Positions 8,212 to 23,512 of a stretch of 23,512 bases of DNA are shown here, piece by piece. The notes beneath the pieces were generated by a model, which had not been told where the DNA came from, did no database searches, and saw only the letters and a program-made list of their open reading frames with translations. A program made the translations under genes and the position numbers. Source of the stretch: a virus; the IMG/VR virus record IMGVR_UViG_3300028829_004031, positions 1 through 23,512 of that record; one strand, written 5' to 3'. How positions within the stretch are numbered: position 1 is the stretch's first letter; each line of letters starts with the position of its first letter.

Positions 8212-9277
8212 TTCATTAAATAAACCTAATTTAGAATCTTATAACGCACCCAATGCATATTCCTATTTTTATCACAAAGGTTTTTATGTACCACAGATAT
8301 TCTATCAATACAAAGATATAATTAAATGTTATACTACTAATCAGATTAATGAGTTGGATTTTTTTGTATATCCAATTAATTTCTGTGATCCCTATTACCA
8401 CCCAGAGCTAAATAAAAGCGGTAAGTTCTTAACCCACATTGATAAACAGGTATTAGACAAAGTAAAAAACAATAAAGGTATTATTTTAATTGATGCTATT
8501 TATGAAGCCTTTAATCTAAATCATTCTTTGGAACTCAAAGAGAATATTGAAAAACTAACGGGTATCAATAATGTATTTTTAAATTCAAGATTTTTTCATC
8601 TATTTCCTGATGATACTTTTTTTACAAACTTTCCTTCTCTTCTTGAATTTTCTGAGTGCCATGTACAAATTGACAACGAAATTAAGGTTAATACAAATAA
8701 AAAATTCTGCCTATTTGGTTCTAGTATTGATAAACACATTGGTGGTCTATGTCTTATAAAGTGGTTAAAAGAGCAAAAACTTCTTTCTCAGGGTCACATA
8801 AGTTTATCTCGTACCACTAGTGTCCTTGATAATGGTCGTTGGTTAGCGTTTATACGTCCTTTTATAGCTATAGATGCTCTTAACTACGTTGACTTCAATA
8901 TTGTTGTAGAATCGTGGTTTACCTCTGTAGGCAATGAAGATTATCCATTCTTATCTGAGAAAGTATTTAGAAATATCCATTATAAAAAACCTTTTGTATT
9001 AGTAGGGCAGGTAGATACTATTAAACAGTTTAAAAGGTTAGGCTATAAAACTTATGATGAAGTGTTTGACGAGTCTTATGACACAGAAAAAGACAGTTAT
9101 ATTAGGTTACACAAAGTCTTTACACAAATACAACGGTTGATTAATGAACCAGAAGATTTCTGGCAGAAAAACAAAGAAAAACTAGATGATATACATAATC
9201 ATAACTTAAATAATTACAAAAATAGAATACTAAGTTTAAGTAAATTTTATGAAGATCTTACACGTGGAGTAATTTAA
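8195..9277 (+). CDS. Glycosyltransferase-like protein, copy 1
   Basis: A 360-residue protein homologous to the product at 10292. The C-terminal third carries the shared block DFNIVVES...PFLSEKVFRN...KKPFVLVG...LGYKTYDEVFDESYD (about 233-297). It resembles the nucleotide-sugar-binding C-terminal domain of GT-B type glycosyltransferases (the E-K...P..F...G pattern), as seen in many unannotated marine phage proteins. Residues 170-180 (KFCLFGSSIDK) could start the second Rossmann-like half. No transmembrane segment is seen. It overlaps the aminotransferase by 17 bases and the amidinotransferase by 1 base. Sugar transfer is a plausible function; donor and acceptor are unknown. Confidence 0.62.
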   Translation: MNLLFDSLNKPNLESYNAPNAYSYFYHKGFYVPQIFYQYKDIIKCYTTNQINELDFFVYPINFCDPYYHPELNKSGKFLTHIDKQVLDKVKNNKGIILIDAIYEAFNLNHSLELKENIEKLTGINNVFLNSRFFHLFPDDTFFTNFPSLLEFSECHVQIDNEIKVNTNKKFCLFGSSIDKHIGGLCLIKWLKEQKLLSQGHISLSRTTSVLDNGRWLAFIRPFIAIDALNYVDFNIVVESWFTSVGNEDYPFLSEKVFRNIHYKKPFVLVGQVDTIKQFKRLGYKTYDEVFDESYDTEKDSYIRLHKVFTQIQRLINEPEDFWQKNKEKLDDIHNHNLNNYKNRILSLSKFYEDLTRGVI

Positions 9278-10299
9278 TGAGCTGCAATAACGATTGGGAT
9301 CCCTTAGAAGAAATCATTGTAGGAACTGCTGACTTTGCAAATATACCTGTTCCTAATATCAGCGTAATGAAATCTCAATTTCCTGAGTACGAAGAGACTT
9401 TTATCAAAGAGTTTACAGGGTTTTACCCAGACCAAATCATAGAAGAACAAAACGAAGACTTAGACAAACTTGCAGACGTATTAAAAAGATTAGGAGTTAC
9501 AGTTCATCGTCCTGATACGTCGTACGCTACAGCTGAAACTAAATCTCCTACTTGGCATGGAAAAAATTGGCATTATTATAGTCCAAGAGATCTTACTCTT
9601 GTTGTAGGCGATACACTCATAGAAACTCCTTCACCAATTTGGAATCGTCAATTTGAAACATGGGGTTATAGAGATGTTTTTACTAAGCTTTGGCATGAAG
9701 GATATAATTGGATTAAAGCACCCGTTCCAATGCTTTACGATGAGAACTATAAAGAAGATACAAAAGGCGTACCTTCTTTGCACAATGAAGAAATACTTTT
9801 TGAGGCAGCTAATTGTGTTCGTATGAATGATGATATACTCTATCAAGTATCAAACACCGGTAATGAAAACGGAGCTAAATGGTTACAACGAGTTTTAGGA
9901 GATTCTTATAAAGTACACGTAGCAAAAGATCTTTATTCTTATGCTCATCTTGATAGTACTATTGTTCCATTGAGAGAAGGTCTTGTACTATATAACGCAA
10001 CAAGGGTAACTCCTCAAAACGAACCTGAAGTATTCAAAAACTGGGATAAGATTTGGGTCCATGACTGTGTAGGATCGGCTAATTCCTTCAATCTTCCTTG
10101 GGGTGCAAGTGAGTGGATTGGCATGAACTTACTCAGCGTAAATGAAAATCTTGCTATTGTAGATAAAAAACAAACTGAAATCCACGATAAACTTAATCGT
10201 TTTGGTATTGAAACTATTCCTCTCGAATTAAGACATGATAGAGTTTTAGCTGGAGGGTTCCACTGCGTAACTCTCGATCTCAAAAGAAAAAATGCTTAA
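9277..10299 (+). CDS. Glycine/inosamine-type amidinotransferase
   Basis: A 340-residue enzyme of the arginine:glycine / arginine:inosamine-phosphate amidinotransferase family, which transfers the amidino group of arginine to an amine. Visible landmarks: SPRDLTLVVGDTLIE (D105), LFEAANCVR (176-179), YAHLDSTIVPLREGLVL (H224, D226) and the catalytic C330 in AGGFHCVTLDL. The length fits StrB-type and AGAT cores (about 340-420). Where vertebrate AGAT has FDAAD, this protein has FEAAN, so one acidic residue near the active site differs. Its TAATG start couples it to the glycosyltransferase-like gene, and its end overlaps the next by 8 bases. The acceptor (glycine, an amino sugar or an inosamine) cannot be told. 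Confidence 0.9.
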   Translation: MSCNNDWDPLEEIIVGTADFANIPVPNISVMKSQFPEYEETFIKEFTGFYPDQIIEEQNEDLDKLADVLKRLGVTVHRPDTSYATAETKSPTWHGKNWHYYSPRDLTLVVGDTLIETPSPIWNRQFETWGYRDVFTKLWHEGYNWIKAPVPMLYDENYKEDTKGVPSLHNEEILFEAANCVRMNDDILYQVSNTGNENGAKWLQRVLGDSYKVHVAKDLYSYAHLDSTIVPLREGLVLYNATRVTPQNEPEVFKNWDKIWVHDCVGSANSFNLPWGASEWIGMNLLSVNENLAIVDKKQTEIHDKLNRFGIETIPLELRHDRVLAGGFHCVTLDLKRKNA

Positions 10300-13694: not shown

Positions 13695-14606
13695 ATGACA
13701 CAAAAAATTAAATGGTTACTCTTTCATGAGCCTGCTGAATTGTTCATCCGTACTGCACGACACTTTGAACAAGAACTTAATGCTTTGACAGATGGAGCCT
13801 ATGAGTTTGAGATTTTAGAACTCGCAGACTATGAAACAAAATACTTAAATGGCAATCGTTGTGACCCTATTACAGAGTTAAAAGAAGGTCGTGTTCAAAT
13901 GAGCCAGATCTACATTAACAACTTAGCTCGTGCAAATGTTACTAACTTCTTAGCACTAGGACTACCTTTCCTTTTCCGCGATCATGCTCATGCAGCTCGC
14001 GTATTTGAAGGTGAAATTGGTGCAGAACTTTTAGAGAATATCAAAGAACGCATTGGTATCAAAGGTCTTTCGTTTACCTACTCTGGTGGATATAAGTGTA
14101 TGGCAGTAAACCGTTCTATCAAGCAAGTCTCTGATTTTGCAGGATTAAAGTATAAAGTTCGTCCAAATGCTGTTTCTTCTTCAATCTTTGATGCACTTGG
14201 CGCAACTCCTGCTGAGAAGTCTGATATTGATATTGCTGATACAACTCTTCCTCGCTATCATGCTGATGCTCGTGAAGATCAAACCTATGCTATCAATACG
14301 GGTCATGCAATGTATCTCACTACAATTCTAACCAACAATGAAATGTTCAACGCCATGAGCGAAGAGCATCAAGCAGCTTTTGTAAAGGCAGCTAAGATTG
14401 CGGCTTCTGCTGAACGCACACAAAGTGTACAAGATGCAAACGAAATTGCAACTACTCCAACTCTTCAGCGTGAGCGTGGAATTAATGAATTTATTACTTG
14501 GAATGAATCTCAGCTTGAAGAACTACGTGCTCGGTTGATTCCAGTTCTTAACTCTTGGAAAGCCTACTTTCCGAATGACTTGGTTAACCGCATCCAAGCT
14601 TGTTAA
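13695..14606 (+). CDS. TRAP/DctP-type solute-binding protein without signal peptide
   Basis: A 303-residue protein of the DctP family of TRAP-transporter substrate-binding proteins. Family landmarks are LPFLFRDHAHAARVFEGEIG (about 95-114), the GLKYKVRPNAVSSSIFDALGATP segment with the carboxylate-binding Arg, and a long C-terminal helix region (MSEEHQAAFVKAAKIAA). Normal members have a Sec signal peptide and 320-340 residues; this one begins directly with the first strand (MTQKIKWLLFHEPAE) and would stay in the cytoplasm or virion. No membrane TRAP subunits are nearby. It has its own strong promoter and ribosome binding site, and its sequence looks more G+C-rich than its neighbours. It may bind a metabolite inside the infected cell or form a structural element. 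Confidence 0.82.
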   Translation: MTQKIKWLLFHEPAELFIRTARHFEQELNALTDGAYEFEILELADYETKYLNGNRCDPITELKEGRVQMSQIYINNLARANVTNFLALGLPFLFRDHAHAARVFEGEIGAELLENIKERIGIKGLSFTYSGGYKCMAVNRSIKQVSDFAGLKYKVRPNAVSSSIFDALGATPAEKSDIDIADTTLPRYHADAREDQTYAINTGHAMYLTTILTNNEMFNAMSEEHQAAFVKAAKIAASAERTQSVQDANEIATTPTLQRERGINEFITWNESQLEELRARLIPVLNSWKAYFPNDLVNRIQAC

Positions 14607-21991: not shown

Positions 21992-22236
21992 TAAGATATA
22001 CACTACTTAAAGAAAAAATGTTAAAAGACGTAGAGTCTTTACAAAAAGACGATTTCTATTTATTAGAAGGCAAATTAATCTTCAAGGAAGAACAAAAAAG
22101 TTTAGCTGCTAAGAACTATTTAGAAAAACACTACGGAACTGTTGAGGTGTTAAAAGCAAACAATCACTCACACTGGAGCAGCCAATACAAAATTGAATTG
22201 TATTTTACGAGTTTATCGGAAGGGATGCAAGCATGA
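21988..22236 (+). CDS. Unknown small protein between oxygenases (82 aa)
   Basis: An 82-residue charged protein (MIRYTLLKEKMLKDVESLQK...) with an ATGA overlap at both ends and AAGGAG upstream, firmly within the oxygenase run. The pattern of strands and helices (FYLLEGKLIFKEEQKSLAAKNYLEKHYGTVEVLKA) suggests a small alpha/beta fold. No known motif is visible. Its position between two related oxygenases suggests an accessory role, but this is only contextual. Confidence 0.72.
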   Translation: MIRYTLLKEKMLKDVESLQKDDFYLLEGKLIFKEEQKSLAAKNYLEKHYGTVEVLKANNHSHWSSQYKIELYFTSLSEGMQA

Positions 22237-22988
22237 CAAAATTAGAACAAACTATGGAAATTTGGAATAATGTAAACACGGTGGATGATTTTATAAACTT
22301 TATAGAAAACCCTAACATTGATTACATGAACTGGTCTGCTAGTTTTGCTGATTCAAGTAAAAGTGGATATTGGATTGGGGCAAGAATCGAAAACTTACCT
22401 GACGTATCTCATTTGTTAGATAATAGCCCACAAATTAAGGCAACAGAATTAAGTTCTACAACTATGACTTCATCAGAGTTAGAATATCACAAGAATTTTA
22501 ATTTTGGAAATGGGTATGATAGACATATACCAACACAAGATTTAATGAAGATCGCTGAATTACTAGGTTTTGAAGATCCTAGTGCGTATTTGAATAATCA
22601 ACCTCCAGCTACACTAATGGGCAGACACGTTGATTGTATAACGTGTTTTTTACACGAACGAACTGAAGAACTTAAAAATCAAAAGTTTGACCGAGTAAGA
22701 AGGCAACCACAAGGAAGTAAAAATGTATGGAGATGCTTTGTTGCATTAGACGATTGGCACCCAGGACAAATAGTAAACTTTGAACCTAATTTTTGGACTC
22801 ACTGGAAAAAGGGAGATGTTTTATTTTTTAATTGGCAATTTACTGCACACAGCACTGCAAACACGGGAGTACACAACAGACCTTTTTTGAAGATCACAGG
22901 CACTATGAAAGACGATCAGTTTGTATTAGATGCTAAAGAAAATCAAAATAAAATAAAAGTATTTAATATTTCTAAAATTAATTCATGA
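22233..22988 (+). CDS. 2OG-Fe(II) oxygenase (fifth of five)
   Basis: A 251-residue oxygenase. The N-terminal leader TVDDFINFIENPNIDYMNW resembles the leaders at 18903 and 21071. The core is QPPATLMG then R-H132-V-D134, KNVWRCFVALDDWHPGQIVNFEP, THWKKGDVLFFNW, distal H206 (AHSTANTG), R216 and LKITGTMKDDQF. It is closest to the protein at 21071. The stop is followed by the motif and hairpin at 22988-23045, so it ends the oxygenase transcription unit. Confidence 0.9.
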   Translation: MTKLEQTMEIWNNVNTVDDFINFIENPNIDYMNWSASFADSSKSGYWIGARIENLPDVSHLLDNSPQIKATELSSTTMTSSELEYHKNFNFGNGYDRHIPTQDLMKIAELLGFEDPSAYLNNQPPATLMGRHVDCITCFLHERTEELKNQKFDRVRRQPQGSKNVWRCFVALDDWHPGQIVNFEPNFWTHWKKGDVLFFNWQFTAHSTANTGVHNRPFLKITGTMKDDQFVLDAKENQNKIKVFNISKINS

Positions 22989-23045
22989 TTGCTAAATGCT
23001 CCTTTTTAAGATAAATTATATCTCTAAAACAAAAAAGGAGCATTT
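22988..23045 (+). promoter_or_regulatory. Ribosome-site-hiding hairpin with an overlapping candidate promoter
   Basis: A perfect 14-bp inverted repeat pairs 22994-23007 (AAATGCTCCTTTTT) with 23032-23045. A smaller AGATA/TATCT hairpin (23009-23023) sits in the loop. The 3' arm contains the AAGGAG ribosome binding site of the gene at 23048. The 5' arm overlaps ATTGCTAAATGCTC (22988-23001), a copy of the motif seen at 15827 and 16117. Messages reading in from upstream would fold and hide the ribosome site; messages starting just after the motif would lack most of the 5' arm. It could also act as a terminator. Confidence 0.65.
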
Positions 23046-23047
23046 AC

Positions 23048-23215
23048 ATGATCTGGAAGTTTTTTACCCTCAAAGTAGTGACTGAAAATGGGGTTACTCA
23101 CAAAGCTACATGGAAAGAGCGTTTTCAGTGGTTGATGCGTGGGTGTCCTTTGCGTAGTGAACGTGTAGTAAAGCGGTACTGCGATTTAGTACATAAAAGG
23201 GCGCACCACTCTTAA
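23048..23215 (+). CDS. Small basic hypothetical protein (55 aa)
   Basis: A 55-residue frame begins MIWKFFTLKVVTENGVTHKA with AAGGAG 7 bases before the ATG, and ends at TAA 23213. It is strongly basic in its second half (RSERVVKRYCDLVHKRAHH) with two Cys, so it may bind nucleic acid. No family is recognised. The ribosome binding site lies in the 14-bp stem upstream, suggesting tight or timed control. Confidence 0.68.
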   Translation: MIWKFFTLKVVTENGVTHKATWKERFQWLMRGCPLRSERVVKRYCDLVHKRAHHS

Positions 23216-23227
23216 AAATTATACTTT

Positions 23228-23260
23228 TTGATTGCCCAGCTGTTAATTTTTTGATAATAT
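23228..23260 (+). promoter_or_regulatory. Candidate promoter for the downstream structured RNA
   Basis: An extended -10 (TGATAATAT, 23252-23260) lies about 20 bases after TTGATT (23228-23233). The spacing to the -35 is long, but the TGn extension can compensate. Transcription would begin near 23267, a few bases before the first hairpin of the G+C-rich region. No ribosome binding site or reading frame follows. Confidence 0.45.
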
Positions 23261-23266
23261 CTATAT

Positions 23267-23512
23267 AGAAAATGAGATGAGGGATCATCCTCCGAGCAAA
23301 ATCAGGTTGTTTTACAGGTTGAACTGCGAAAGTTAAAGTCGGTCAATGATCCAACGGAGTCACGGAAAGCGTCTCGCCCTGCATCACATTTTCGACCCTC
23401 GCTCTGGGTACGAGCCGGATCTCTCCGACAACGAGACGCAAGGCACGGTGTTAAGATTCCCAAGCCCCACCTAGAAGGCTGCTTGTAAAAACACGCGGGA
23501 CTAGGCGCATTG
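23267..23512 (+). ncRNA. Structured G+C-rich noncoding RNA (partial, runs off the end)
   Basis: About 55% G+C by hand count over 23341-23460, with no convincing gene on either strand and many nested complementary segments. GGATCAT (23282-23288) pairs with ATGATCC (23346-23352). GCGTCTCG (23369-23376) pairs with CGAGACGC (23432-23439) and encloses GCTC/GAGC (23401-23415) and CGGA-TCTC-TCCG (23416-23427). GTGTT/AACAC (23448-23452/23490-23494) encloses CAAGC/GCTTG (23461-23485). A local GATGA-GGGA-TCATC hairpin is an alternative at the 5' end. The features fit a large ornate RNA such as GOLLD or ROOL, known from phages, but I cannot match a consensus. I see no tmRNA, RNase P or group I intron core. 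Confidence 0.65.

Follow-up and report, generated by a model that had tools for sequence, protein, structure and literature searches.

The question raised by this locus is what is made from the last 246 bases of a 23,512-base IMG/VR record (the whole stretch of DNA analyzed, referred to here as the window), where G+C rises from ~0.33 to 0.49. The initial annotation had remarked on this rise and proposed a structured, possibly new, phage noncoding RNA running off the end. Comparison with homologues bears the proposal out, with covariation, a promoter, and a lack of coding capacity all pointing to a molecule, termed RNA A, that on the strength of its sequence is almost certainly a structured noncoding RNA. 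The window holds its 5' half, and two IMG/VR sister contigs, L001 and L002, with 96% identity to the last 544 bases of the window, carry it ~240 nt beyond the window end, confirming the run-off.

23267..23512, plus strand: RNA A, 5' half; full length ~490 nt, completed in L002:817-1305 (489 nt) and L001:14014-14502
23232..23260, plus strand: T5-type sigma-70 promoter; TTGCCC 23232-23237, 17-nt spacer, TAATAT 23255-23260

No ORF is conserved on either strand among 11 RNA A homologues, and stops are scattered through all six frames, in agreement with the annotated absence of coding potential. The promoter just upstream had also been noted, and its position puts the RNA A start at ~23267, the very coordinate given in the initial annotation. 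The 3' end is uncertain because most lineages are without a terminator directly after RNA A; in L011, a terminator lies directly 3' of it.

The case for structure rests on comparison because, for the 246 bases, minimum free energy folding does not surpass that of shuffled sequence (z = 0.12). Full-length RNA A is present in L002, L007, L011, L014, L015, L016, L042, L051, L058, L085, and L094; in L080 and L092, its middle has diverged. Covariation was counted over 11 helices and 53 pairs on an unguided MAFFT alignment (A2) whose 14 rows represent about 6 to 7 independent lineages. Paired cells make up 92.9% of the alignment over these helices, and 26 of the 53 pairs have changed on both sides, so that covariation among homologues sharing no conserved protein frame, the check named in the initial annotation, is found. 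The covariation score of 0.302 compares with 0.132 in shuffles, none of 500 of which reached the observed value, and pairing drops to 31 to 41% when partners are slid; the helices were picked by eye from the sequences being scored, and relatedness is ignored by the shuffle control but not by the slide control. Helices lying within the window are as follows.

23282-23288 / 23346-23352, plus strand: helix P1, GGATCAT / ATGATCC; GG..CC changes to GC..GC; encloses P2
23292-23295 / 23339-23342, plus strand: helix P2, CCGA / TCGG; CCGA/UCGG changes to CUGG/CCAG
23357-23359 / 23373-23375, plus strand: helix P3, GAG / CTC; GAG/CUC changes to GUG/CAC in L011, L015, and L016
23396..23415, plus strand: P5, H-type pseudoknot; CCC 23396-23398 / GGG 23406-23408 with GCTC 23401-23404 / GAGC 23412-23415
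23461-23465 / 23481-23485, plus strand: helix P6, CAAGC / GCTTG; changes to CGAU/AUCG; interlocks with P7
23470-23474 / 23501-23505, plus strand: helix P7, CCTAG / CTAGG; CCUAG/CUAGG changes to CCUAC/GUAGG and CUUAC/GUAAG

Covariation is clearest in P2, P3, P7, P8, P12, P13, and P14. Three interlocked, or pseudoknotted, helix pairs are apparent, namely, P6/P7, P8/P10, and the H-type P5, whose pattern, inspected by script outside the pair counter, is retained in 9 of 11 homologues with the variants CCCA/UGGG, CCCU/AGGG, and GCC/GGC. P8 varies as AGUCG/CGACU, CGUCG/CGACG, CAUCG/CGAUG, and CGCAG/CUGCG, with GGUCG/CGACC read by eye in L213, which is outside the alignment. The P13 loop UGUCGCCUACC and the P14 loop GCGGG are both invariant and are candidate pairing partners; some loci were found with a search pattern that included the former, which is also retained in loci found through the ORF. 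As for the stems proposed initially, the 7-bp pairing of GGATCAT at 23282 with ATGATCC at 23346 is real and covaries (P1), and the 5-bp pairing of CAAGC at 23461 with GCTTG at 23481 is likewise real (P6). Two others did not hold up: the 8-bp stem of GCGTCTCG at 23369 and CGAGACGC at 23432 is missing except in the nearest relatives and was rejected, as its 5' arm overlaps covarying P3, and the 5-bp stem of CTCCG at 23290 and CGGAG at 23355 is not conserved and competes with covarying P2.

Beyond the window, RNA A is part of a mosaic locus. The order in L002 is RNA A, a second promoter, RNA B (~1359-1515), a 105-amino-acid ORF (1625-1942), and RNA C (1943-2460), which carries an intrinsic terminator. 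RNA B, ~150 nt long, has its own pseudoknot, formed between the loop of a 5' hairpin and CCCU/CCAU on the far side of an A-rich linker, and its closing GGGGAAG/CUUCCCC stem precedes a T run; it is 98.3% paired, with 7 of 18 pairs changed on both sides. The RNA C core has a 7-bp stem around GGCGAGGUUGGUGGC with all seven pairs changed on both sides, and RNA C folding is more stable than that of shuffles (z = -2.9). For the ORF that separates RNA B from RNA C, there is a match to phrog_1725 (DNA binding) and a weak resemblance to D5-like regulators.

These modules are rearranged from locus to locus. RNA A and RNA B are contiguous, with no promoter between them, in L015, L016, L080, and L092, and L155 has RNA B without RNA A. 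Genes or tRNA-like pieces are inserted directly 3' of RNA A in L011, L014, and L051. In L213, RNA B precedes RNA A, which is cut after P10 and joined to the Rfam manA RNA (61.3 bits; cutoff, 55.2) and the C core; in L237 and L238, the RNA A front is fused with a second B pseudoknot and with the C core. A minimal C core lies directly after tRNA-Arg and tRNA-Leu genes in L211. Genes upstream of RNA A differ, and what follows is B, a promoter, a gene, or manA plus C; because its surroundings vary, RNA A is not tied to one gene. tRNA genes occur near RNA modules in L013, L211, L213/L216, and the L238 contig, with none near several others; the L213 region has 11, the nearest ~1.1 kb upstream of RNA B.

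Several further observations concern these loci. A G+C-rich noncoding stretch directly upstream of RNA B (L238:8440-8680) has its own T5-type promoter, ends in GGGGAGG...CCTCCCC, and may be a further RNA of the kit. tRNA-like genes of ~59 nt, missed by ARAGORN (L011:3917-3975, L013:131-188, and L015:785-843), have a 7-bp acceptor stem (GGUAGUG/CGCUACC in L015, AGCAGUG/CAUUGCU in L013), a D arm, and a T arm, with only ~8 nt in place of the anticodon arm, and in L013 and L015, a normal tRNA gene comes next. The L017 contig (L140:8765-19141) has 19 tRNA genes in 20 kb and a 73%-identical ORF, without RNA A or B.

To ask which phages carry RNA A, we turned to the promoters and to gene content. Fifteen further loci have identical hexamers and spacing 5' of RNA A, RNA B, or the ORF; a T5-type promoter recurs before every RNA A copy. 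Enterobacterial T5-like phages have the same promoter architecture with a TTGAGAGAGGA leader, exemplified by records of Epseptimavirus and Tequintavirus (Markadamsvirinae; TTGCTT, ~17 nt, TATAAT, and the leader), and the promoters that bear a UGAG(A)GAGG leader are of the T5-like phage type. The terminase large subunit in the L015 contig (L137) shares 39 to 41% identity, over its full length, with its counterparts in T5 and relatives; no hallmark gene for a T5-like assignment is present in the window itself. Judging from the terminase in one carrier and from the promoters, RNA A carriers are T5-like phages, which we take to be marine from the manA literature, gene content, and our reading of IMG sample numbers. 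Phage T5-type promoters are strong and early, and the promoter is what suggests that RNA A may be abundant, as the initial annotation proposed.

Other features of the window include a phage ORF that resembles the DctP family of TRAP transporter solute-binding proteins (13695-14606; PF03480, E 1e-30) and an amidinotransferase-like ORF (9277-10299) with 38% identity to one in Synechococcus phage S-SCSM2R and 22 to 33% to Campylobacter phage proteins. By eye, an unusual run of ORFs across 1039-22988 looks like 2OG-Fe(II) oxygenases; a scan of one of them (22233-22985) gave no match in Pfam or PHROG. At 22993-23046, the inverted repeat TAAATGCTCCTTTTT / AAAAAGGAGCATTTA would mask the ribosome-binding site of a 55-amino-acid ORF (23048-23215), and both repeat and ORF are conserved in L001, L002, and L007.

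Loci were gathered via the ORF, DNA patterns, and ORF alignment. A covariance model of the front domain (R1), trained without the window, L080, L092, L213, L237, and L238, matches window positions 23271-23381 at 124 bits and recovers the held-out L092, L080, L213, L237, and L238 at 79 to 100 bits, the next match being at 16 bits; the front domain is also present in the L213/L216/L232 contigs, L237, and L238. By blastn, 50,697 phage records yielded no copy of an RNA module, and in the cultured T5-like relatives inspected, matches were T5-type promoters before genes or a tRNA region. ORF relatives L160-L183 lack RNA A by covariance model and both A and B by profile search. Neither the ORF nor the RNA C pattern yielded relatives in genome contigs, and five pattern matches there, being without surrounding structure, were read as chance. 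Matches to the RNA B pattern were also mostly chance, the only new real ones being L042, L051, and L058.

Is RNA A a member of a known family? The initial annotation had suggested GOLLD or ROOL, an assignment that found no backing among 4,227 Rfam families, with no match for the window at gathering scores or for the complete L002 RNA up to E = 1; the GOLLD, ROOL, and OLE models gave none in the window, nor up to E = 1 in the L002 RNA. Across our Rfam searches, only tRNA and manA exceeded threshold. RNA A does share with ROOL and GOLLD a phage location, a length of hundreds of nucleotides, noncoding nature, covarying structure with multiple pseudoknots, and tRNA genes near some copies (PMC12286853), as a member too divergent for Rfam detection would. 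Such membership is very unlikely, as the complete RNA goes unmatched and the universally conserved 3' region of GOLLD (PMC12286853) should have been detectable; modular swapped domains and marine T5-like carriers also set RNA A apart. Cryo-EM of known GOLLD, ROOL, and OLE members is described as showing RNA-only homo-oligomeric particles (PMC12286853). No tmRNA was found by ARAGORN in the window or loci or by Rfam. The L002 order of structured RNA, small ORF, and structured RNA might suggest a self-splicing intron or ribozyme interrupted by the ORF (A-B, ORF, C), a reading of slight probability given that neither the group I or group II catalytic core nor any ribozyme matches in Rfam (window and L002), that the parts occur separately and in swapped order, and that no interrupted gene is seen around the locus. 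Slighter still is the likelihood that the region acts at the DNA level, as an origin or a packaging or recombination site whose stems arose by chance; this would suit an intergenic, G+C-rich stretch but not covariation in interlocked helices or a conserved promoter at the 5' edge.

More weight attaches to RNA A, with B, being a long cis-regulatory leader or attenuator for the D5-like ORF or other downstream genes, although we consider it unlikely. Most RNA A copies sit upstream of this ORF, whose own leader has a covarying hairpin, and manA, a module in L213, has been described in the 5' UTRs of metabolic genes and proposed as a cis-regulator (PMC2864571). Against this, the ORF has a separate promoter between RNA B and itself, whole genes or tRNAs intervene between A, B, and the ORF, no ORF comes next inside the L213 array, and the L011 terminator directly follows RNA A. 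RNA A itself is not manA (RF01745), which is absent from the window and L002, above gathering score only in L213/L216/L232, and just below cutoff in the L155 contig. Like RNA A a marine phage RNA, manA is fused behind the A front domain in L213/L216 and the L232 contig, and at L213:2831-3000 and L216:692-861, it lies inside a long noncoding RNA array as one of its domains instead of preceding a metabolic gene.

The comparisons show a family of large structured noncoding RNAs, with its promoter, its lack of coding, the exchange of modules, and tRNA gene neighbors in some carriers. Our preferred account, to which as a whole we give about an even chance, is that RNA A represents a new family of large modular phage noncoding RNA that works as an independent structured transcript, analogous to GOLLD and ROOL without belonging to them. 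In this account, a T5-type promoter drives the multi-pseudoknot RNA of marine T5-like phages, which is made either by itself (~490 nt) or together with RNA B in one ~600- to 650-nt RNA (L015, L016, L080, and L092), and the family is built from exchangeable domains: A front, A back, B, manA, and C core. RNA A would most likely act in trans, folded into a particle that works on its own or together with partners from host or phage, in the way supposed for GOLLD and ROOL, and not as a leader of neighboring genes. Trans action is suggested by independence of any single gene, size, pseudoknots, T5-type promoters, some tRNA neighbors, and the GOLLD/ROOL analogy (PMC12286853); as a mechanism, the trans-acting particle ranges in our estimate from tentative to evenly balanced. 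Expression level, early timing, trans action, and a binding partner are what we infer.

Very few large structured phage RNAs are, to our knowledge, known, and their functions are still poorly understood. No description of the RNA A family, nor of a link between manA and a larger RNA, was found in the literature searched. RNA A adds a family unrelated to the known ones, in which covariation is strong, 5' ends are defined, and domains have been swapped naturally. The swaps mark domain borders, supply constructs that could go directly into structural and functional tests, and tie the orphan manA motif to a larger RNA. Somewhat tentatively, we propose that marine T5-like phages hold a superfamily of large noncoding RNAs whose parts come from a common domain kit, with manA as one exchangeable domain of trans-acting RNAs. 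If this is true, manA, so far seen as a riboswitch candidate, would be a swappable domain in these phages.
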